Source: Hygrocybe punicea (lineage: Eukaryota; Basidiomycota; Agaricomycetes; Agaricales; Hygrophoraceae). From it: a DNA stretch of 64,000 nt. A program made the position numbers and the translations under genes. Position 1 is the first letter of the stretch. Every line of letters begins with the position of its first letter. Location: the NCBI GenBank assembly GCA_963556145.1, contig OY744469.1, positions 434,001-498,000 on the forward strand, in the 5' to 3' direction. Below the pieces are notes generated by a model. That model saw only the letters and a list, made by a program, of their open reading frames with translations, did not search any database and was not told where the DNA came from. Below are positions 41,456-63,200 of this stretch, piece by piece.

Positions 41456-41617
41456 ACGTATCAGTGACTTTTTTTAATGATATTACTTGGCTGTCCAAAT
41501 ATGATTATATTATATTTTGGACCATCAAACTCGAAGACTGTGCAATTTCCGTAGGGTAGATGCAGCATCAATAGTCCCTAGGAGCATTTCCTGCGCCAAG
41601 AAATTCAGGCCACTCGA

Positions 41618-42412
41618 TGTAGAGGGTCCTCGACCCTCTGAGGCCGTAACATCGATATCTAGCGAATCCGCTCGAACCCGACGTCTCTAGCAATCTACGT
41701 TCGAACCCGACGCAACCCGACGCAACCCGATGCATACCGACTAGCACGGCCGCTCACGTACCTGGACGGTCTATCTCCTAAACTCACGGAACTTCAAATA
41801 TCGAAGATAGATCTCATCGGACTGGGATCCCGACATCGGACTTGCCTTATTCACGCCTAGCGTCTCCCTTATGGGGATATAGTAAAGTATATTGCATCTT
41901 TTACGGTTTTTTATATCTTCCACCCATTTTCCCTGTCATCGTCGCCTCGCAACGCTCTTCCTACTTCCCCATTTTTATTCTCCTTTGTCTCCTCTCATCG
42001 GCCGAGGACTCTCGTCCGAATCTAGGTACACAAATTTGTAGTATAAAAACGGTGCCCAAGCGCCGTCTCAGAATAAGAAACCAGTTCCCCCATTTCCTCT
42101 CTCTGAGAATTAAGTCTCTCAGTAAATTCCATCGCACACATTGCTCGTCGGATTCCTCGACGCCCTCCCCGTCGTTCTACCGCCTTTATCTCTACGTTAC
42201 TCGTCACCCGACACCCGACCCGCCGTACCCGACATCGTCGGCCTCGTCGGCTTCGATCGGTCTCCATAGATCTCAGTAGTTTACTCGGCGGCTTCTTACT
42301 TTTTATATCCTATTATCTTACTGAAGCTTGTTAGACTATTCCTAGTCACTTCTACGCTGACCTCTCAGGCTTAGGATCATTATTCCGCAGCCACCCCGAC
42401 CTCGCCTTTACA
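41618..42412 (+). repeat. Ty3/Gypsy 5' LTR
   Basis: 795 bp. Starts with a short hairpin (GAGGGTCCTCGACCCTC, 41,621-41,637) and contains CGAACCCGACGCAACC-type short tandem repeats near 41,700. Confidence 0.93.
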
Positions 42413-42414
42413 TC

Positions 42415-42432
42415 TGGAGCCCACCGCGAGGA
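42415..42432 (+). other. Primer-binding-site candidate
   Basis: TGGAGCCCACCGCGAGG begins two bases after the 5' LTR. The TGG start matches pairing with a tRNA 3' CCA end. The tRNA was not identified. Confidence 0.55.
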
Positions 42433-42958
42433 ATAGTCTAGCACCACCATAGCTTCCTCTTCCCGTATCCCTCCCTCTGACCGTCGTCTTCGAGATCTTC
42501 CTCGAAGAACTCTTCAACAAGAACTCTCTTTAGCCGCCTTCGACCCGACAATCGACGACGACTTCTTCCAGCTAGTACCCGACCACCTCGCTCGACATAA
42601 CAATCTCCCGCTCGTCTCAGGATCAAACACCCCCCTATATCTTTCATCCGACAGTCTCGAATCGGTCGATATACCGATAATTACCATTACACCCGACTCA
42701 TCCGATCTCAGTTCGACACCCGCATCGCCTACGTCCCCGACTTCGACCTCGTTAGAACCCCCGTCCACGTCTTCGCTCTCGACATCGAAAACTCCGTCAT
42801 CGTCATCGTCTCCGTCTTCGCTCTCGACATCGAAAACTCCGTCATCGACATCGTCCCCGTCTTCGTCTTCGTCCACGCCGTCATCGCCCACGTTACCCGA
42901 CCCGCTCATCGTACACCCGACAACCGCTTCATCGACATTTCAGCTTCTTCCACCCACA

Positions 42959-45214
42959 ATGACTTCGACCTCTGGATCTTCGACCGCTCCCCACGTTACC
43001 GCTCCCCATGTTACTCCACGACAAATGCCCGCTCGCGGTCACTCCACGGCCCCGACCTTCGACGGGAACCCGCTCAATTTAAACCGCTTCTTCGAAGAAG
43101 TCGAGATACTTGCTGCCGATGCCGCTCTCGACGACGCAGGACGCATCAAGCATAGTCTGCGCTACGCGTCGCTTAGCGACTACGAGCTTTGGGCAAGTTT
43201 ACCTAGCGCGACCGGCGTCGATTATGCCGCATTCAAAAAGAGCGTACTCGTGCTATACCCGGGTACGGAAGACGATCACCGGTACACTATGGCGGATCTC
43301 GACCGTCTTACCCACACCCAAACCGCTTACGGTATCCGTACCCGCGCCGAACTTGGCGAATATTACCGCGAGTTCATCCGGATCTCGGGATTCCTCTTAG
43401 ACAAGGGTCGAATCTCTCCCCGAGAACGCAACATCGCGTACGAGAACGGCTTCCATGTCGAGCTTAAAAAGGACATCAAAACCCGTCTGCAGTACCAAAA
43501 GCCGAACCATTTCCATAGCGACCCTTACGACTTCCAAGACTTCCACAATTGCGCCCACTTCTTGCTGGCCGGAACCGCGGCCGAACCGTCCACCGTCTCT
43601 CGTCTCTCGTCAACGTCGCCTGCCGCCATCCGGTACTCGACTCCAATGGAACCCGCCACCCGCTACCCGCCACCCGCTCGCTATGACCCGGTCATTCCTA
43701 AAGCGGAACCGGTCGAACCTAACGTATCCGACCTATTTCGTCTCGTTTCGCAACAACTCGCCGTCCTCACGCAAGCCCTCACCGAACGCAACAACCCCCC
43801 AAAGCCGTGTGCAAATAGGGCTGAGCCGACCACCGCGGGACAGGGTTTCACCAATTTCAACTGCCTCTTTTGCGACGACCCGTTCCATCGTATACGCGAT
43901 TGTCCTATTTGCGAGCAGTACACTCGAGACGGAATATGCCGCAAGAACGAGCACGGCCGCATCGTGTTGCCTAACGGAATGTATCTTCCAAAGGCTATCG
44001 TCGGCAAAAATATGAGGGAACGCTTCGACGCGTGGCACGCACAGAACCCCGGCAACCGCGCTCCCCCTGCCCGCAACCCCACAGAACCGTTCCAACGCGA
44101 CCCGCCGCCTCATGTCAAAACTAACTTCGTCTCCGCCGTCGAAGTACCCACCTACGAACCAGAGGTCACCACCGAGTACGCCGACATCTTTCAGTCCACG
44201 ACGTCCGACATCGACGACGACAACGAACAAATTAAGGTTCTGGAAGCCGAAGTGCAGCGGCTTCGTAAACGGGTTAGATTCGACGGTGTAGAGATCCCAT
44301 CAAAGGCGAAAGGCAAGTCTAGAGAAACGTTTCCCAATCTGCCCACCACTTCCACGTCTGTCCCCGCCGCGAAACCCGCCGAGAAAACGACCAGACCTAT
44401 CAACGAGCAGCCGATCACCATAGTCCCCCCTTCGAACACGCGGCCGACCGAGCCGACCGCCCTTGTACCGCGCACTTCCCAGAACCTTCCCACATCGCAC
44501 CCCCAATACCGCTACCAAGCCCCCATCGAAGATCCCGGTATCGCCAAATCCGTCATCGACCGCGCGCTCGATTCTCAAGTCTGCATTTCGCAGCGAGAGC
44601 TTTTAGCCATGTCGTCCGACGCCCGCCGTCACATGAAGGACCTCACTACGTCGAAAAAGGTCACCGCCGAGAGTAACAACGTCGAGGTCTTCCACTTTCA
44701 CGCACCCGAAATCCCCACTCGCGCCTGTCAACACTGTCAGGAAAACGTCCCGCTCGTCGTCGGCCGCGACTCAGTCCCTCTCCGTGCGGTCTACCCGCTC
44801 ATCAACGGCAAATTCGTATTCGAGTGCGTCCTCGACAACGGTTCCATGATCATCGGCATGCGGCGCGATATTTGGGAGAAACTCGGTTACGGCCTCCAAA
44901 ATATGAAGATGCGGATGCAGTCGGCAAATAAAAGCGACAACGACACCCTCGGCCGGATCGCCAACCTAAAATTCACTTTTGGCGACGTCGATCTTTTCCT
45001 CCAAGTCCAAGTCGTCGACGACGCCCCCTACGAGATCCTCATCGGCCGCCCGTTCTTCACGCTTTCCGAGGCTCTTACGAAGGATTATAAAAACGGAGAA
45101 CAACAGGTCACGATCACGGATCCAAACACCGGCGCCGTCGTCACCTTGCCCACCATCGAGCACAACCAAAAGAACCGACGAGAGCGGTCCGACACCGGAA
45201 AGCCGGATTTTTAG
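42959..45214 (+). CDS. gag: Gag-protease polyprotein of the Ty3/Gypsy element
   Basis: 751 residues from the ATG at 42,959. The N-terminal half is a capsid-like region (FDGNPLNLNRFFEEVEILAA, then a YYREFIRISGFL stretch), as in Ty3/Gypsy Gag. A single CCHC zinc knuckle (C302, C305, H310, C315; CLFCDDPFHRIRDC) would bind RNA. A retropepsin-like site VLDNGSMIIGM lies near residue 625, with D-N-G-S replacing the usual D-T/S-G; the following stretch to residue ~690 ends LIGRPF, fitting a protease. The frame stops with TAG at 45,212-45,214. The same frame is open for 174 codons upstream of the ATG (42,437-42,958) without another ATG; see findings. Gag builds the particle, and the protease matures it. 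Confidence 0.88.
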   Translation: MTSTSGSSTAPHVTAPHVTPRQMPARGHSTAPTFDGNPLNLNRFFEEVEILAADAALDDAGRIKHSLRYASLSDYELWASLPSATGVDYAAFKKSVLVLYPGTEDDHRYTMADLDRLTHTQTAYGIRTRAELGEYYREFIRISGFLLDKGRISPRERNIAYENGFHVELKKDIKTRLQYQKPNHFHSDPYDFQDFHNCAHFLLAGTAAEPSTVSRLSSTSPAAIRYSTPMEPATRYPPPARYDPVIPKAEPVEPNVSDLFRLVSQQLAVLTQALTERNNPPKPCANRAEPTTAGQGFTNFNCLFCDDPFHRIRDCPICEQYTRDGICRKNEHGRIVLPNGMYLPKAIVGKNMRERFDAWHAQNPGNRAPPARNPTEPFQRDPPPHVKTNFVSAVEVPTYEPEVTTEYADIFQSTTSDIDDDNEQIKVLEAEVQRLRKRVRFDGVEIPSKAKGKSRETFPNLPTTSTSVPAAKPAEKTTRPINEQPITIVPPSNTRPTEPTALVPRTSQNLPTSHPQYRYQAPIEDPGIAKSVIDRALDSQVCISQRELLAMSSDARRHMKDLTTSKKVTAESNNVEVFHFHAPEIPTRACQHCQENVPLVVGRDSVPLRAVYPLINGKFVFECVLDNGSMIIGMRRDIWEKLGYGLQNMKMRMQSANKSDNDTLGRIANLKFTFGDVDLFLQVQVVDDAPYEILIGRPFFTLSEALTKDYKNGEQQVTITDPNTGAVVTLPTIEHNQKNRRERSDTGKPDF
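45207..45214 (+). promoter_or_regulatory. Candidate -1 ribosomal frameshift site between gag and pol
   Basis: The gag frame ends GAT TTT TAG. The run of five T just before the stop would let a ribosome slip back one base (to TTT TTA), and the -1 frame is then open straight into pol with no stop up to 45,316. No downstream structure was evaluated. Stop-codon bypass by another route is possible. Confidence 0.5.
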
Positions 45215-45315
45215 AAGTCGAGGACCCGGAGATACCTCTCGGAAAGGACGCACCGGGAGATGAGAAGCCGCCACTCGAAAGCGACCACACCTATACCACG
45301 AACTATGCTTCCCTT

Positions 45316-48300
45316 TTGCCGTTTCCCCTAGAAGAGGACTTATGTTTTTCTATCGATTTAGATTTCTCTTCGTCTCAGCCCCAGACTGCCGCCCAGTACA
45401 TTTCATTGTTGACCGATGTACAAAATCAGCTACGTACTACCGATACCCTTCCTTCGTCTTGTTCCGTCTCCGCTCCTGCGTCACATATTTCCTCTTCGAA
45501 TATTTGTAACAAAGCCTCTACTGAACACGCTACTTATATCTCGTATACCACCCCCCCTACCAGGGACCTAAAAGGAGTCGTTACCAAGAAAAAGTATAAG
45601 AAGGTAGCCGATCGTATCCGCCCAATTTCTACCACTCTCCCCGACGAATACCGCATCATACGCGAGATCACCGGCGACCCGCTAGCCGATTTACCCACGC
45701 TCCCGACTCACCCGCCCGACTTTACACCCGGCACCCGCTATACCCAGGAACGACACGATGCGATGCCGATGAACCCGGATGGATTCCTTTGGCCTGAGGA
45801 AGAAAAACTCGGCCACCATATCATCAAAACGCAAGAAGCCGCCTTCGCCTGGAACGAATCCGAGAAGGGCCAGTTCAATACGGACTACTTCCCGCCGATC
45901 CACATTCCCACCGTACCGCACGACCCGTGGGTCCATCGCAATATCCCAATCCCACCCGGCATCCTTAACGAAGTCATCGGCATCATCAAAGACAAAATTA
46001 ACGCCGGTACCTATGAACCCTCGAATTCGTCATATCGCTCCCGCTGGTTTTGCGTTTTGAAAAAGGACGGGAAGTCTCTTCGAATCGTCCACGATCTACA
46101 GCCGCTTAACGCCGTCACTATCCGCGATCCCGCCGTACCGCCCATGACCGAGCACTTGGCCGAGGCCTTTGGCGGCCACTCTTGCTACGCTTCCTTCGAC
46201 CTCTTCGTCTCTTTCGACCAACGCCTCGTCCACCCCTCGTCTCGTGACTATATGACCTTTCAGTCTCCACTCGGAACGCTTCGACTTACGCGGATTGCTA
46301 TGGGATACACAAATTCCCCGCAGATCTTACACGGTGACTCTACGTACATCCTCCGTGACGAAATCCCTCATCTTGCCGTTCCGTATATGGACGATATTCC
46401 CGTCAAAGGGCCTCCAACCCGCTACGAGCAACCCGACGGTACCTACGAGACTATACCCGAGAACCCGGCAATCCGACGTTTCATTTGGGAACACTTCCAA
46501 GGTGTCAACCGCGTCATCCAGCGTTTCCGCTATGTCGGCGGTACCTTCAACGGCAAAAAACTCGAGTTGTGTCGACCCTCAGTCATCGTTGTTGGCCACC
46601 GATGCACATACGAAGGAAGAGTAGCCGACGACTCCAAAGTACAGAAGATTCGCGATTGGCCACTGCCGACCAACCTCACCGAAGTTCGCGCCTTTCTTGG
46701 CATCTGCGGCGTCTTGCGTATTTTTATCAAGGACTTCTCGCTTCACTCCCGACCCCTCGTCCGCCTTACCCGCAAAGGTATACCCTTCGAATTTGGTGAA
46801 GAAGAAGAGACCGCCGTCGACTACCTCAAAAACGCCGTCATTACGTCGCCAGCGCTGCGCGCTATCGACTACACGCGTGAATGGGAAGTGATTCTCGCCG
46901 TCGATTCATCCGTTCTTGGAGTCGGCTTCGTTCTTATGCAAATCCGCGCCGACGGAAAGCGCTATCCGAATCGCTTTGGTTCAATATCGTGGAACGAACG
47001 CGAAGCCCGATACTCCCAGTCCAAGCTCGAACTCTACGGCCTCTTCAGGGCCCTCCGCGCCTATCGGATTTTCATTATCGGCGTCCGCAACCTCACCGTT
47101 GAAGTCGACGCGAAGTACATAAAAGGGATGCTCAACAACCCCGACATTCAGCCCAATGCAACGATCAACCGATGGATAGCCGGCGTGCTCTTATTTGACT
47201 TTAGACTCGTTCACGTACCCGCTTCCGCACACGGTGCACCCGACGGACTCTCCCGACGTCCCCGCGCTGCAGAAGACCCCGAGGAGATCAACGATTCCGA
47301 CGATTGGCTCGACCACTCCTACGGTTTCTTTATGGAAGTCGTCAACTACCGACCCGTTCCCATACCGTCTAAGCCGATTGCCGTATGCGGCCGCTGCCGT
47401 GCCACAGCCGACCGACTCCAAGAATTACCCGCCGTCCTCGTCTACACAAATCAGGAAGCCGTATCTGACATACCGCGATCCGATAAAGCCCGCGCGGCCG
47501 ACGCTCGTCTTGCCCTCGTCGAGACTTGGTTACGAGATCTAACCCGACCCGCGAACTTCACGGACGAAGAATACCGTCTGTTCCTACGATACGCCCTTGA
47601 ATTCTTCGTCACCGATAACAAGCTTTGGCGCAAAGACCGTCACGGAAAACACAAACTCGTCATACCGCCCGACCGCCGGCTTCAGTTACTCAAAGACGCT
47701 CACGACTCTCTCGGCCATAAAGGTATATTCTCCGTCCGCGCTCGGCTACTCGATCGTTTCTGGTGGCCGCACCTCGACCACGACGTTAAATGGTACGTCC
47801 AGTCTTGCCATCAGTGCCAAGTACGGCAAATGCGTTATCATCACATTCCGCCCACCGTCGCTACACCGGCCTCACTATTTCGTAAAGCGTATGTCGACAC
47901 AATGTTTATGCCACGATCCGGCGGCTATCGATACATCGTCCAAGCCCGTTGCTCCCTGTCCGCCTACCCTGAGTTCCGCATGTTACGCCGCGAGACCGGC
48001 TCCACCATCGGCACGTTCTTGTTCGAAGACATCTTATGCCGTTGGGGCGCTCTCGAAGAAATCGTTACCGACAACGGCAAGCCGTTCGTAGAAGCGCTCG
48101 ACTATCTCGCCTCCCGCTACGGTATCCGCCACATCCGCATTTCGCCCTATAACTCACAAGCGAACGGACCCGTTGAGCGTCGCCACCTAGATGTCCGGGA
48201 GGCCATTATGAAAAGTTGTGACGGAGATGAAAAGAAATGGCACACCGTAACCCACTCCGTATTTTGGGCCGAACGGGTCACGACACACAAAAGCCTCGGA

Positions 48301-48864
48301 TACTCGTCCTACTACATCGCACACGGAGTAGAACCGCTTTTTCCATTCGATTTTGCCGAAGCTACGTACATGGTTCCGACGCAAGATACGATGTCTACGA
48401 CCGACCTTATAGTCATCCGCGCCCGACAACTTCGTAAACGAGAAGCCGACCTCGATCGGGTCAAAGAAAAGCTTACCAAATCTCGGCTCGCGTCCGCCCG
48501 GCAATTCGAGCAGAAATACGCCAACACGATCAAAGTTTACGACTTCGAACCCGGTAACCTCGTTCTCGTCCGAAATTCACGTATCGAAATGTCTCTCGAT
48601 CGTAAAGCAAAACCGCGGTACTTTGGACCCATGGTTGTCGTCAGGAAAACAGAAGGCGGATCCTACATACTCGCCGAACTCGACGGTGCGGTTTCTAAAT
48701 CTCGATTTGCCGCTTTCCGAGTCGTACCCTACCACGCCCGCTCAAAAATATCGATACCGTTGGACGACTTCTTACAATACCCCGATGCTGACGATACCGA
48801 TTCAAACGATCTTGATGATCCGACGTACCCGCCCTCCATAGACTCCTCACCCGACGACGATTAA
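45316..48864 (+). CDS. pol: Pol polyprotein: reverse transcriptase, RNase H, integrase
   Basis: 1,182 codons counted from 45,316 (a TTG codon; the true start is probably by frameshift from gag, as the frame is open back to 45,207). RT: SRWFCVLKKDGKSLRIVHDL, then YMDDI near residue 357, the catalytic Y-x-D-D. RNase H: ILAVDSSVLGVGFVLMQ near 525. Integrase zinc finger H-H-C-C (HDSLGHKG ... CHQCQ) near 795-830; catalytic triad Asp (YVDTMF, ~860), Asp (VTDNGKPF, ~917) and Glu (GPVERRH, ~953). A GPY/F-type module (PRYFGPMVVVRKTEGGSYIL) is near 1,100. It ends with an acidic tail and has no chromodomain. The protein copies the element RNA and inserts the DNA. Confidence 0.93.
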   Translation: MPFPLEEDLCFSIDLDFSSSQPQTAAQYISLLTDVQNQLRTTDTLPSSCSVSAPASHISSSNICNKASTEHATYISYTTPPTRDLKGVVTKKKYKKVADRIRPISTTLPDEYRIIREITGDPLADLPTLPTHPPDFTPGTRYTQERHDAMPMNPDGFLWPEEEKLGHHIIKTQEAAFAWNESEKGQFNTDYFPPIHIPTVPHDPWVHRNIPIPPGILNEVIGIIKDKINAGTYEPSNSSYRSRWFCVLKKDGKSLRIVHDLQPLNAVTIRDPAVPPMTEHLAEAFGGHSCYASFDLFVSFDQRLVHPSSRDYMTFQSPLGTLRLTRIAMGYTNSPQILHGDSTYILRDEIPHLAVPYMDDIPVKGPPTRYEQPDGTYETIPENPAIRRFIWEHFQGVNRVIQRFRYVGGTFNGKKLELCRPSVIVVGHRCTYEGRVADDSKVQKIRDWPLPTNLTEVRAFLGICGVLRIFIKDFSLHSRPLVRLTRKGIPFEFGEEEETAVDYLKNAVITSPALRAIDYTREWEVILAVDSSVLGVGFVLMQIRADGKRYPNRFGSISWNEREARYSQSKLELYGLFRALRAYRIFIIGVRNLTVEVDAKYIKGMLNNPDIQPNATINRWIAGVLLFDFRLVHVPASAHGAPDGLSRRPRAAEDPEEINDSDDWLDHSYGFFMEVVNYRPVPIPSKPIAVCGRCRATADRLQELPAVLVYTNQEAVSDIPRSDKARAADARLALVETWLRDLTRPANFTDEEYRLFLRYALEFFVTDNKLWRKDRHGKHKLVIPPDRRLQLLKDAHDSLGHKGIFSVRARLLDRFWWPHLDHDVKWYVQSCHQCQVRQMRYHHIPPTVATPASLFRKAYVDTMFMPRSGGYRYIVQARCSLSAYPEFRMLRRETGSTIGTFLFEDILCRWGALEEIVTDNGKPFVEALDYLASRYGIRHIRISPYNSQANGPVERRHLDVREAIMKSCDGDEKKWHTVTHSVFWAERVTTHKSLGYSSYYIAHGVEPLFPFDFAEATYMVPTQDTMSTTDLIVIRARQLRKREADLDRVKEKLTKSRLASARQFEQKYANTIKVYDFEPGNLVLVRNSRIEMSLDRKAKPRYFGPMVVVRKTEGGSYILAELDGAVSKSRFAAFRVVPYHARSKISIPLDDFLQYPDADDTDSNDLDDPTYPPSIDSSPDDD

Positions 48865-49066
48865 GCATTTCATTTATATTCTGTCCACGTTATACCCCCA
48901 TTTTATTTAGTTCCTCTTAGTTTTCCAACGATATGACGAATGATGCGAATAGTCCTATGTCTTCGGGAGCCGATCGGCTTTCCTTAGCTGGGTGAACAAG
49001 CTGACACGTCTTTTATATACACGATATATTTTTATACAACGGGCTCGTTATTTTTATATATATATT
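48865..49066. other. Convergent 3' region between pol and the antisense gene
   Basis: About 200 bp of AT-rich sequence separates the two stop codons. It presumably holds both 3' ends; runs such as 'tatatatatt' (49,020-49,065) may serve as termination or polyadenylation sequence for both strands. Confidence 0.4.
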
Positions 49067-50454
49067 TTACAGGCGGCCGGTCTCGTAATCCCGCTTCAAC
49101 ATCGCCAACCTTGAGGTCGACCGTTCGAGATCGACGCGAAGCCGCTGGAACTCTTGACCGAAGTGGACGAGGTGACGGTTGACGTTGGTGCCCAGGGCTC
49201 CCAGCTCCTCCGTAAGGACCGCTAGCCGCGCCGACACTTGCTCGTAATTCTCCATCGTCAAAACGAACGGGTTCGCTGTCGAGGCCGTCCTAAGCCTTTT
49301 CGTCGGCCGCTCTTCCTCCGACTCCTCCTCGTCTTCGTCATCGTCCTCGACCGACTCCACCTCCTCGACCCGCGGTTTGCTCGTTGAGGCCCGGGCAGGC
49401 CTACTGCGGATGGGCTTTGTCGTGAACGACAACGGCTTCCTCGTACCGGCCGCGACCTCTTTGCCCTTTCCGGTATCCACCTTGCGCCGACCCCCGCCCG
49501 TCCGGTGTGTAGCGTTAGTACATCTCTTCTTCAGCCTCCGGCATCGTTCGCACACGTAGCCCGTGACGCCTCGACACGCCTCTTGCGCCTTGACGCAGTT
49601 GGTGCAGGGTTGTAGGGGAAACGGCCCGGTGAACTGTTACCAGGATCAGTAACTAAAGAACATATGAACCGACACAAGAACTCACCGTCGTACCAGCCAA
49701 GTCTCCGGTCTCTACGCCCGGCGTATCTACGTCGTCTACATCGGCCGGTGTCTCTGGTGCCGGGTCGACGGGGCCTTCCTCTGGCTCAACTGCGGCTTCC
49801 CCTTTCGGAATCGACTCAGTCCTTGGTTCACCCGCGTTTGCTTCAGCTCGCCGTTCTTCGCTGAGCCGCCGCCGATACGCGGCTCCATCCCTTTCAACCC
49901 GGTCCGCTTCTTGATTCCAGTGCTGCTCGTGTTGTTCTATTCTAAGCCGCTCTCGCCTTTCCTCTGCCGCCTTTCGCCTTTTCTCCGCCTCCGCTCGTGC
50001 ACTTGCCTCTGCCATCCGTTTGGCCTCCTCTTCCCGCGTAGCCGCTTCTTCATCCGCCCGCCGTCTGGCTTCTTCCTGTTCCTGCCTCTCCCGGTCCGCC
50101 GCTTCTTTCAGCCACTCTTCGACATCGTTGGCGTACGATTGGCGGTCGGCCCATAACGGTGGCGTTACTGGCCTCGTACCACCAGCTCGGAGTTCCGCGA
50201 CGATTCCATTGTAAGCACGCTGGCGGGACGGCATGAGCTATCTTAGGACACGCGTAGTCAATAAGGAAACTCACCAGCGCCTTCTTGCGGCCGCTTAACC
50301 ATTGTTGGGCCATCCCCTCGTTGCCGTCCACCATCGTTACGAGGTCGTCGCTATGAAACACGGTGACCGCGTTGACGGCCTCTTCGTAGTCCGCCCGGAC
50401 ATCGGGTTCGATGCTTTCGACGAAAGCGAGGAAGTTGTCGTAGACTTGGGACAT
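49067..50454 (-). CDS. Antisense Zn2Cys6 zinc-cluster / coiled-coil protein carried by the Ty3/Gypsy element
   Basis: Exons 50,454-50,275, 50,219-49,686 and 49,633-49,067 are joined by introns of 55 and 52 bp (GTGAGT...CAG and GTGAGT...ACAG), both phase 0, giving 426 residues. Residues 1-60 form a globular N-terminus (MSQVYDNFLAFVESIEPDV...). Residues ~85-175 are a charged Arg/Glu/Ala coiled coil, followed by an acidic Pro-rich linker. Residues 248-276 carry six Cys at 248, 251, 258, 266, 269 and 276, spaced exactly as a Zn(II)2Cys6 fungal cluster with basic RRLKKR between the last two. Next come a basic region, an acidic block (residues ~315-330), KRLR and a C-terminal helix. Such clusters normally bind DNA. 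In the element it could act on the LTRs, but that is inference; no transmembrane or capsid-like feature argues for another role. Confidence 0.85.
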
Positions 50455-50539
50455 TGTGAACGTGTGATGGTGTAGAGGAAAGGTCGGATCAACAACGAGA
50501 AAAATTTTCTTTTTTTTACTTTGCCGTTGTTTGGCCGCT

Positions 50540-50550
50540 CACGTGATTGG
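50540..50550 (-). promoter_or_regulatory. CCAAT box abutting CACGTG upstream of the antisense gene
   Basis: On the minus strand CCAAT (50,550-50,546) is directly followed by CACGTG (50,545-50,540), 86-96 bases upstream of the ATG at 50,454. A poly-T/A run lies between (50,502-50,518). This is a plausible compact promoter inside the element's internal region, just outside the 3' LTR. Confidence 0.5.
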
Positions 50551-50610
50551 CCACATTCGCGACCCGCATTCGGAGACCCCATATTCTCGACCACGGATGG
50601 TCTCTATTAG

Positions 50611-50624
50611 AAGACCCAAGGAGA
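50611..50624 (+). other. Polypurine tract candidate
   Basis: AAGACCCAAGGAGA lies directly before the 3' LTR, the place where plus-strand DNA synthesis is primed. It is broken by pyrimidines, so weak as a tract. Confidence 0.45.
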
Positions 50625-51419
50625 TGTAGAGGGTCCTCGACCCTCTGAGGCCGTAACATCGATATCTAGCGAATCCGCTCGAACCCGACGTCTCTAGCAA
50701 TCTACGTTCGAACCCGACGCAACCCGACGCAACCCGATGCATACCGACTAGCACGGCCGCTCACGTACCTGGACGGTCTATCTCCTAAACTCACGGAACT
50801 TCAAATATCGAAGATAGATCTCATCGGACTGGGATCCCGACATCGGACTTGCCTTATTCACGCCTAGCGTCTCCCTTATGGGGATATAGTAAAGTATATT
50901 GCATCTTTTACGGTTTTTTATATCTTCCACCCATTTTCCCTGTCATCGTCGCCTCGCAACGCTCTTCCTACTTCCCCATTTTTATTCTCCTTTGTCTCCT
51001 CTCATCGGCCGAGGACTCTCGTCCGAATCTAGGTACACAAATTTGTAGTATAAAAACGGTGCCCAAGCGCCGTCTCAGAATAAGAAACCAGTTCCCCCAT
51101 TTCCTCTCTCTGAGAATTAAGTCTCTCAGTAAATTCCATCGCACACATTGCTCGTCGGATTCCTCGACGCCCTCCCCGTCGTTCTACCGCCTTTATCTCT
51201 ACGTTACTCGTCACCCGACACCCGACCCGCCGTACCCGACATCGTCGGCCTCGTCGGCTTCGATCGGTCTCCATAGATCTCAGTAGTTTACTCGGCGGCT
51301 TCTTACTTTTTATATCCTATTATCTTACTGAAGCTTGTTAGACTATTCCTAGTCACTTCTACGCTGACCTCTCAGGCTTAGGATCATTATTCCGCAGCCA
51401 CCCCGACCTCGCCTTTACA
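50625..51419 (+). repeat. Ty3/Gypsy 3' LTR
   Basis: 795 bp at a constant offset of 9,007 from the 5' LTR, with no difference seen. Confidence 0.93.
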
Positions 51420-52712
51420 TCGAGATGCAAAGACGGGCATCCAATACCAGCTTCCCAACTGCCCATATATCCACCTCTGAACCATGTCCGTCTCGGAAAG
51501 TATTTGGGTGGTGGTTGTCCCTGTGCAAATGCATGGCAGCGAGTGTTGGGGCCTTGGATGCATCCTCAAAATCGATTAGAAACCAGCTTGAATGGCCCCC
51601 CTCCCACAGTGGCAAATATAGTACATTGGGCCAATGAATATCTATGGAAGATACTGGGATCCGGCTGATGCATTACCTATGAAGCTAAGTAAGCAGGAGC
51701 ATCTCTGCTACACTGAAATGTACCAAAAGAGCCATCAAAACACACTGTACCGCCACCTTGAGCTTGTCTTCGGAGATCGGTTTGCACTCTATTCCTTTGG
51801 GTGAAAGATATACCGCTGATCCAAGTCTAGGATGATCCTCGTAGCCACAGTTGAGCCTATCAATATGCTTCACGTCTTTTGTAATTAGTAGAGCATAGAT
51901 TGCTTTCAAATGCATGACTTGTAACTTGCAGTCTTCCCAGGTGTACTGTTTTCTAATGCCAGCTGAACCAATGATTACCATGGTACCATTTAGCCTATGT
52001 CTGCGTATTAACACTTTACATGTGAAAACCAGCGAGAGACTCACTGGTAAATTGGGATTAACTCAGGAATGTGACCTCCGATTCTCGCCTGTAACAATTT
52101 GAGAACAGAGCAGAACTTGATCATGAGAACCGCATTTTTTACGTGGTCTGTCTTGATTGAGAGGTTCAAGGAGAAAAGATTGTCAACCCCACCCCGTGTG
52201 ATGGTCGTGAGAGTGACAAGGGTCGTTATGGCGTGGTAACCTGTATGGGTAGTTCAAGAAATGTCGGGCAGAACAGAATAGTATATGAGCACTCGCCAAT
52301 TATATACGAACAGGGATCATACGTCCATTGGAGTAGATCCTTGATAACCCTTCAGTTTTTCTTCTCCTCTGAAAACACCAACCCCATTCAGGACATAGGC
52401 GAAATCTGGCCAGCAGAGAGTGCTTGTGTTGTGGTTGCTGTTTCTCACCCACGTCTCACCTCCAAGGACAATCTCAAGAATTTTCCGAATGTTGTCGTCC
52501 CAAAATGAATGGAATGAGTCCTCAGTGCCAGATTGACTTGGAGGCCGACCGTTGACTGCTGTGGTAAAAAGGTCAGAGTACCTAACGTCCTCGTCCTCGG
52601 CAAGTCTGAACAGAGGTTGAAGATCACCCTTGGAACAGTTGATTTCAATGTAGCCAGTTGAATGAAGCCAATTCCATATGCGTACATGTAGCACTTTGTA
52701 GAAGGAACGCAA

Positions 52713-58179: not shown

Positions 58180-59345
58180 GTCGTTTTGGTTAACCCAATC
58201 GCAGATATAGTTGCAAAAGGTAGGTACACATAGCCCAGTTGCTTGCTGGGGGGGTAGGTTAACCCAAAAGACAGCTCTTGCTGGGGAAATGTTGGGTGGT
58301 AGGTTGACCCAGGTACAGCTCTTGCTGGTCAAGGGTGGCTGGGTGGGTCAACCCGGTGTCAGCTCTGCCATGGGGTAGGTTAACCCAGGACAGCTATTCT
58401 GGATTGGTTGGGTTGACCCAGGTCCAGTTGTTCAAGCAATGTGGGTTGACCTGGCCGCAGCTATTGCTGCAGCACTGGGTTGACCATGGACCAGCTCTTG
58501 CTGCAGGCTTGGGTTGACCTGGGTCCAGCTGTTGCTGCAGCACTGGGTTGACACAGGCCCAGCACTTCCTGCAGGGTAGGGTGGCTGGGGTCCAGGTATT
58601 GCTGCAGGCTTGGGTTGACCTGGGTCCAGCTCTTGCAGCAGCACTGGGTCGACCCAGGTCCAGATATTGCTGCAGCACCAGGTTGACCTGGATCCAGTGC
58701 TCACTGTGGGCATTGGGTTGAGCAGGATCCAGGTATTGCTGCAGCACCGGGTTGACCCAGATCCAGCGCTTGCTGCGGGTCTTGGTTTGACCAGGATCCA
58801 GCTCTTGCTGCAGCACTGGGTTGACTGGGGTCCAAATATTGCTGCAGCACTGGGTTAACCCATGTCCAGATATTGCTGCAGCACTGGGTTGACCCAGATC
58901 CAGCGCTTGCTGCAGGGCTTGGGTCGACCAGGGTGCAGCTATTGCTGCAGGCTTGGGTTGACCCAGGTCCAGCACTTGCTGCAGGGCTTGGGTTGACCAG
59001 GATCCAGCTCTTGCTGCAGCACTGGGTTGACCTGGATCGAGCACTTACTGTGGGGCTTGGGTTGAATGGGGTCCAGCTATTGCTGCAGCACTTGCTTTAC
59101 TCAGATCCAGCACTTGCTGTAGGGTAGGTTGACTGGCGTCTGGCCTGTCCTGTAGCATTGCATTGATTGCAGACCCACCGATGTAGCAGGATTGGGTACA
59201 TGAAGGTCTGGCTATTGCTCCAATATTGCGTTGACATGGCCCTGCTCTTGCTGCAGCATTCGGTTGACCCTGGCCCAGCTCCCACTGCAGCATTGACTTG
59301 ACCAGGGTCCAGCTTTTGCTGCAATGTGGGCCCATGTCAGTGCAA
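58180..59345. repeat. Minisatellite of about 34-36 bp units
   Basis: About 30 imperfect tandem units of the type GGGTTGACCCAGGTCCAGC followed by TATTGCTGCAGCACT, strongest at 58,440-59,100 and more diverged on both sides. Each unit holds TTGACC(C/T)(A/G)G, GTCCAG and TTGCTGCAG. Frames on both strands stay partly open by composition; I reject them as genes. The array begins directly at the break of the PIF1 fragment. Confidence 0.85.
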
Positions 59346-62645: not shown

Positions 62646-62979
62646 TGAACATAAATGTACCATGTAATATAATTTGAATGCAATTATTATTAATAAAAGC
62701 TCAGGGAATAGCAAAATTACACAATTATTATTTTGACAATGCACAATATCTTACTTTTACTATCAGCTATCAGCCATTACAGGAGTTACTTATCCCTACT
62801 GACAATCTATGGCAAAACCAGAAATTACCCTATTTGGAATATTGTGCTTTTCTATTTAATATTGCTCAATTCTCTATTGGAATATATATAACCTCACTAT
62901 TACTTAAAATACACACATACATTTAATGATTATTAAAATACATAATTAAATAGTAAAGGGCAGGAGGCAGGTGGGTGGG

Positions 62980-63200
62980 TGTGGGAGGAAGGTGGGAGTG
63001 GAGTGGGAGGAAGGTGGGAGTGGAGTGGGAGGAAGGTGGGAGTGGAGTGGGAGGAAGGTGGGAGTGAAGTGGGAGGAAGGTGGGAGTGGAGTGGGAGGAA
63101 GGTGGGAGTGGAGTGGGAGGAAGGTGGGAGTGGAGTGGGAGGAAGGTGGGAGTGGAGTGGGAGGAAGGTGGGAGTGGGACTGGAGGAAGGTGGGAGTGGG
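62980..63200 (+). repeat. 22-bp purine minisatellite, about 10 units
   Basis: Unit GGGAGGAAGGTGGGAGTGGA plus GT, nearly perfect across 62,995-63,170. It lies in the purine strand of the pyrimidine-rich tract that follows the low-complexity exon of the minus-strand gene-like repeat. The overlapping frames are artefacts. Confidence 0.85.

Follow-up and report, generated by a model that had tools for sequence, protein, structure and literature searches.

In plants, LTR retrotransposons carry open reading frames (ORFs) that lie antisense between pol and the 3' LTR, are present in most copies and are conserved like other element genes; for the antisense ORF of Grande a promoter of its own and a nuclear product have been reported, and for TRP28 DNA binding has been predicted (PMC7264820, PMC11963269). 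Neither PMC7264820 nor PMC11963269, on these plant ORFs, uses the term 'intron' in its main text. Among fungal elements, Boty of Botrytis cinerea has an antisense gene, brtn (Zhao et al. 2011), described as lying between pol and the 3' LTR (PMC7264820, PMC8365987, PMC4227169). Spliced antisense transcripts are described for the retroviruses HTLV-1 and HTLV-2, whose respective products HBZ and APH-2 lower Tax-dependent viral transcription (PMC3736048) and have a reported nuclear location (PMC11963269). What antisense genes do in LTR retrotransposons is treated as an open question (PMC7264820).

The locus described here is a fungal Ty3/Gypsy element whose antisense gene has two introns within its coding sequence and encodes a six-cysteine cluster, which is a new combination. 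The gene shares position, orientation and presence in most copies with the plant ORFs, but these encode different proteins, as described, and belong to plants rather than fungi. Compared by its published description only, Boty brtn is likewise an antisense gene between pol and the 3' LTR of a fungal LTR element; a chromodomain has been reported for Boty-like gag-pol, whereas a Pfam scan of the present element found none in pol. The HTLV genes come from animal retroviruses, have their first exon in the LTR, spliced to an exon with the main ORF, and encode bZIP or related proteins, whereas our gene has both introns inside the coding sequence and encodes a protein with a cysteine cluster and coiled coil, so that the likeness is one of analogy only. 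The original prediction could name no precedent for a spliced zinc-cluster gene in this position. This stands for the two coding-sequence introns and the cluster, and among open-licence titles and the openings of abstracts none was found that describes a fungal LTR element with a zinc-cluster gene spliced in antisense; it does not extend to antisense ORFs as such, known from plants and Boty, or to antisense splicing, known from HTLV-1 and HTLV-2.

We analysed a window of 64,000 nt (positions 434001-498000 of contig C35) and searched the genome from which it comes (92.2 Mb, 42 contigs). One complete LTR element occupies positions 41618-51419 of the window. Its 5' LTR (41618-42412, plus strand, 795 nt, TGTA...TACA) and 3' LTR (50625-51419, plus strand) were delimited by their identity to each other and by their outer boundaries, and the element is flanked by a 4-bp target-site duplication, TCGA, at 41614-41617 and 51420-51423 (no strand assigned). 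The LTR pair is identical over 799 nt without a mismatch (41616-42414 versus 50623-51421), and the insertion is therefore very recent. A gag-protease frame, open from stop to stop on the plus strand (42437-45214), contains DUF4100 and an aspartic protease (PF13352, E = 1.4e-9; PF13650, E = 4.8e-4, below its cut-off). It is followed in another frame by pol (45091-48864, plus strand, stop to stop) with reverse transcriptase (RT), RNase H and integrase; PF17919, PF17917 and PF17921 scored above their cut-offs and rve (E = 1.3e-5) below its own, and the RT was identified through relatives of pol, many of those listed having PF00078, rather than by Pfam in the window protein. The LTRs, the short target-site duplication, gag, protease and the order RT-RNase H-integrase place the element in Ty3/Gypsy, and it is a young and abundant retrotransposon in this fungal genome.

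The antisense gene occupies the minus strand between pol and the 3' LTR. Exon 1 (50275-50454, 180 nt) comprises codons 1-60; exon 2 (49686-50219, 534 nt) the end of the N-terminal segment, the coiled coil and an acidic linker; and exon 3 (49067-49633, 567 nt) the six-cysteine cluster, a basic and acidic linker, a long C-terminal helix and the TAA stop codon. Between them lie intron 1 (50220-50274, 55 nt) and intron 2 (49634-49685, 52 nt), both on the minus strand, both in phase 0 and both of the form GTGAGT...CAG. All three exons are multiples of 3 in length, and joined they give a frame of 426 codons from ATG to TAA. The stop codon lies 202 nt beyond the end of pol (48864) and the ATG ~170 nt from the 3' LTR (LTR start 50623-50625), which is the aORF-3R position, that is, a coding gene antisense to gag-pol and between pol and the 3' LTR. 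Since the coding sequence is clear of both gag-pol and the LTR, constraint on it cannot come from pol. These coordinates bear out what had been read from the window's letters: a three-exon minus-strand gene, two phase-0 introns with GTGAGT donors and six cysteines in C-x2-C-x6-C-x7-C-x2-C-x6-C spacing after a coiled coil, to which a second long helix following the cluster can be added.

Most copies of the family carry the gene in conserved form, as is characteristic of aORF-3R genes. Exon 3 was found in antisense orientation 3-9 kb downstream of gag in 53 of 57 near-full-length DUF4100 matches of the element family (those scoring at least 34.3 bits); in two of the other four it lay ~12 kb downstream, and in two an exon-2 match was found 5.6-5.9 kb downstream. 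In a DNA search with the full 1388-nt query, the best 40 of 263 candidates were scored and all 40 matched over the full query at 99-100%, while all 150 scored candidates of an exon-3 protein search (485 at first look) matched at 91-100%. A search with exons 1 and 2 extended to a copy at 71% and led to an older subfamily, B.

Both introns were bounded by GT and AG in all 30 near-identical copies (window included), in 20 of 20 more diverged copies (L077, with an unrelated 3' end, retained) and in 5 of 5 further subfamily-B copies (L077 left out), or 55 of 55 in total. One intron-1 and one intron-2 donor read GTAAGT and all others GTGAGT; the length varies by a base or two, 54-56 nt for intron 1 and 50-53 nt for intron 2. 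All three exon lengths were multiples of 3 in 16 of the 21 sequences of the diverged set (window included), in which exon 2 also shows a 9-nt in-frame length difference. Queries made of joined exon ends gave split matches only: of 198 and 197 candidates, 40 each were scored, and none of these lacked the intron. L067, considered as an unspliced copy, was rejected, since its exon 1 is shorter by 11 nt and the intron is not lost. Genomic RNA holds the introns as their reverse complement, a form that splicing cannot remove, and they are therefore retained at every transposition; a lack of intron-less copies is expected if copies arise from sense RNA. The original prediction that antisense introns survive the RNA stage in this way fits both the 55 copies and the joined-exon searches, and these copies illustrate how a gene in antisense orientation lets a retroelement retain introns.

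The antisense frame is a gene kept by purifying selection, as judged from codon substitutions. In comparisons of the window with nine copies, the gene frame had a pairwise omega of 0.23-0.32, and the two shifted forward frames had values of 0.87-2.33. Reverse frames were examined as well for six of these comparisons: two gave 0.95-1.67, and the sense-strand frame sharing third positions gave 0.27-0.43, above the gene frame in six of six. Exon by exon (six comparisons, L077 excluded here and from the pairwise counts), omega was 0.07-0.22 for exon 1, 0.41-0.49 for exon 2 and 0.12-0.27 for exon 3, so that exons 1 and 3 are more constrained than exon 2 with its coiled coil. Across the cysteine region it was 0.06-0.28 in eight comparisons and 0.79 for L071 (two synonymous and five nonsynonymous changes). 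Two subfamily-B copies compared with each other gave dN 0.10 and dS 0.25.

Variant classes point the same way. In the 30 young copies we counted 73 variants (34 synonymous, 36 nonsynonymous, 1 stop and 2 intronic); those coding variants found in at least three young copies were seven synonymous and two nonsynonymous, counted by eye and omitting codon 199, where the window and L018 have a rare replacement in common. In 50 copies, L077 among them, the ratio of nonsynonymous to synonymous variants was 107:101 in at least three copies, 59:57 in two copies and 319:150 among singletons (shared in at least three versus singleton, Fisher p = 4.9e-5), and the same shared class gave 146:56 and 139:53 in shifted frames. 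Fixed differences between subfamily A (48 copies) and subfamily B (six copies, L077 excluded) comprised 40 nonsynonymous and 42 synonymous changes in frame, compared to 61:12 and 57:9 in shifted frames, and fell mostly on third codon positions (31/350, 20/363 and 66/292 by position), although against the singletons of that alignment (160:104) the difference was not significant (p = 0.07). Residues 241-285, which include the cysteines, had no nonsynonymous and five synonymous fixed differences; the C-terminal part had 26 and 13, and the first 95 residues five and two, respectively. As a control, gag in 30 copies gave 13:34 for shared variants and 56:63 for singletons; these copies were picked by profile, which favours intact gag, and L034, which is the window's own copy, was left out.

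A chance or residual frame without function would account for the finding that only 8 of the 21 sequences in the diverged set (window included, most of them chosen as diverged) are fully open. It would not be expected to give an omega of 0.23-0.32 where shifted forward frames give about 1, to keep the six cysteines in 54 of 54 aligned copies and both splice-site pairs in 55 of 55, or to stay open in 29 of 30 young copies with a stop in just 19 of the 150 best exon-3 matches (counted by eye), and we give this explanation almost no credence. The original prediction had named copies lacking the frame, or an absence of purifying selection, as findings that would count against it; the omega values and the 53 of 57 elements with exon 3 downstream of gag show the opposite on both points.

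Selection on a coding sequence may also serve ends outside the element. The gene could mainly counter or exploit host silencing, or steer host genes as a cargo transcription factor that helps copies to survive. When the antisense gene of the 30 young copies (L001-L030) is compared with that of the window, C-to-T or G-to-A accounts for 45 of 52 singleton changes, an excess expected from decay of methylated cytosine and so what would be seen if the host methylates the copies. Selection across transpositions, however, requires only a benefit to transposition, and we regard a mainly host-directed function as rather unlikely.

Turning to the protein, the cluster (49520-49606, minus strand, CTNCVKAQEACRGVTGYVCERCRRLKKRC) has its cysteines at residues 248, 251, 258, 266, 269 and 276. 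Zn2Cys6 clusters follow the pattern C-x2-C-x6-C-x(5-12)-C-x2-C-x(6-8)-C, with which this spacing agrees, and in Gal4-type clusters basic residues stand between the second and third cysteines. In the window product this stretch reads VKAQEA, with a single lysine, and a basic stretch, RRLKKR, lies instead between the fifth and sixth, an arrangement that could mean a different mode of DNA binding, or none. The Pfam profile Zn_clus scored 11.3 bits over the full length and 19.6 bits on a 46-residue piece, short of the curated cut-off of 21, and its best-matching stretch pairs the beginning of the profile with the latter half of the cluster. The product thus resembles Gal4-type PF00172 proteins in its six cysteines at allowed spacing and its coiled coil, but differs from them in its score, in the place of its basic residues and in the shifted register of the profile, whose first half falls on the latter half of the cluster.

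Single-sequence models fold the cluster into two helices, with modest confidence (pLDDT block means 62-85). An AlphaFold model of exon 3 alone has a C-terminal helix of 59 residues (exon-3 residues 127-185), with block means of pLDDT of 91-98 over exon-3 residues 131-188. Fold searches gave no clear match, and the Pfam scan of the product found neither a bZIP domain nor another transcription-factor domain. The label 'Zn2Cys6' given by the original prediction therefore holds for the cysteine spacing, while the sub-threshold Pfam match and the fold searches do not extend it to the family. By its spacing and invariance the zinc cluster is a good hypothesis rather than a proven family member, and the product is probably a zinc-binding protein.

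Relatives outside the family were sought at several levels. Against a protein database, none of 8000 scored candidates matched the full 426-residue product at E ≤ 1e-3, and none of 28 word-sharing candidates matched residues 235-330 at E ≤ 10, a null result that does not show absence from other fungi, because candidates were restricted to 0.55-1.75 times the query length, which omits the single-exon pieces that gene calling without introns would produce, and words from the coiled coil dominate the search. With pol as a control, 1887 of 8000 scored candidates reached E ≤ 1e-3, those listed including Rhodofomes, Leucocoprinus, Pleurotus and Candolleomyces, so fungal elements are represented in the database; from these names the host is most likely an agaricomycete. 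Exon 3 and pol were also scanned against IMG/VR, and neither found a relative. Within the genome, other Gypsy stretches, L086-L089, yielded neither a related antisense gene nor a six-cysteine pattern (tblastn E ≥ 2.4); of these, L087 was covered to ~2 kb past the end of pol and L088, stopping short of it, was uninformative.

Upstream of the antisense ATG lies a conserved, promoter-like block (50465-50550, minus strand). It contains CCAATCA at -96 (19 of 21 sequences), GTTGATCC at -39 (21 of 21) and the CT-rich box TTTCCTCTACACCATCA at -27 (20 of 21); between these boxes runs an A-rich tract. In L061, from subfamily B, the block is 85% identical over 129 nt and farther out there is no match to the window LTR; the introns of L061 differ at 25% of compared sites. 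This conservation suggests a promoter specific to the gene. A bacterial promoter scan was set aside as not relevant to a fungus.

On these grounds we propose, at a probability of about one half, that the antisense product is an element-encoded nuclear, DNA-binding coiled-coil protein that regulates the element's own LTRs. RNA polymerase II would start at a promoter belonging to the gene, immediately internal to the 3' LTR, and transcribe towards pol; the two small introns would be spliced out of the transcript. From its N terminus, the protein would comprise a conserved segment, a long coiled coil with many charged residues, an acidic linker, the cysteine cluster, which could bind two zinc ions, a basic stretch and the C-terminal helix. 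It would enter the nucleus, form dimers or higher oligomers and bind element DNA, most likely at sites in the LTR or U3, and its effect on LTR transcription would amount to self-control, a role comparable by analogy to that of HBZ in HTLV. A parasite may, on this proposal, encode its own regulator. Given recent copies, clear exons, codon-level selection and a recognisable layout, the nuclear location, DNA targets and LTR effect of the product are directly testable.

The predicted convergent transcription also lends itself to a different account, in which the antisense RNA is what matters, forming double-stranded RNA with gag-pol RNA for copy control, and the protein is secondary; control by double-stranded RNA has been raised for such elements (PMC7264820). 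Codon-level purifying selection and invariant cysteines are unexpected for a purely RNA-based function, and we hold this account to be improbable. For LTR self-regulation by the protein, the LTR itself offers candidate binding sites: GTCGGG occurs in eight direct copies, all on the minus strand, where 0.76 would be expected over the stretch scanned. In 4 of 300 shuffles the most frequent 6-mer also reached a count of at least eight, and GTCGGG was picked after the fact; these repeats are possible binding sites that serve as a lead only. A count of GTCGGG across copies by simple indexing (19-21 of 30 copies) was dropped, as indels shift the positions. A further sequence, GGCCGCTCACGT, occurs twice, at 50533-50544 beside the antisense CCAAT box, where it falls in a CACGTG palindrome kept in 15 of 21 sequences, and at 50755-50766 in U3.

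The target sites bear on another possible role. In the flanks of L001-L030, leaving out L002 and L016, whose LTR end was not found by pattern, the 4-bp insertion site was centred on CG in 26 of 28 copies and on TG and CA in the other two (background 0.048, P about 2e-32); the target-site duplication itself was observed in the window element only. In L002, CGA precedes a changed LTR end. With so strong a preference and no chromodomain in pol by Pfam, the antisense protein might be a factor for nuclear import or integration-site choice, contacting both DNA and the pre-integration complex and guiding insertion instead of transcription. Its cysteine cluster and coiled coils would suit a tether; against this reading, integrases by themselves can show strong local target preferences. 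Roles in retrotransposition have been suggested for plant antisense ORF products (PMC7264820). We consider an import or integration factor an unlikely alternative to LTR regulation. A protein that does both is a decidedly long shot: a spliced antisense DNA-binding protein with a permuted-looking six-cysteine cluster would control the LTR and also direct integration to CpG sites, preserved because antisense introns are invisible to splicing of genomic RNA. If this were so, the fungal Ty3/Gypsy lineage would have a self-encoded module for targeting and regulation.

Other stretches of the genome yielded some neighbouring observations. A different DUF4100 Gypsy family (L087:3-536, plus strand; G000:C3:515100-517600) has at the end of its pol frame a weak match to the ASCH domain (E = 0.068 in L087, below the cut-off). 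An ORF of 194-262 residues with no Pfam match recurs at L087:1599-2387 (plus strand), where it lies on the sense strand downstream of pol, and at L089:1272-1856 (minus strand), a stretch fetched near another DUF4100 hit; it is possibly a different accessory gene or part of the LTR of that family. The window itself also contains tandem arrays at 58442-59119 and 62963-63199, with units of 34/69/206 nt and 22 nt, respectively.
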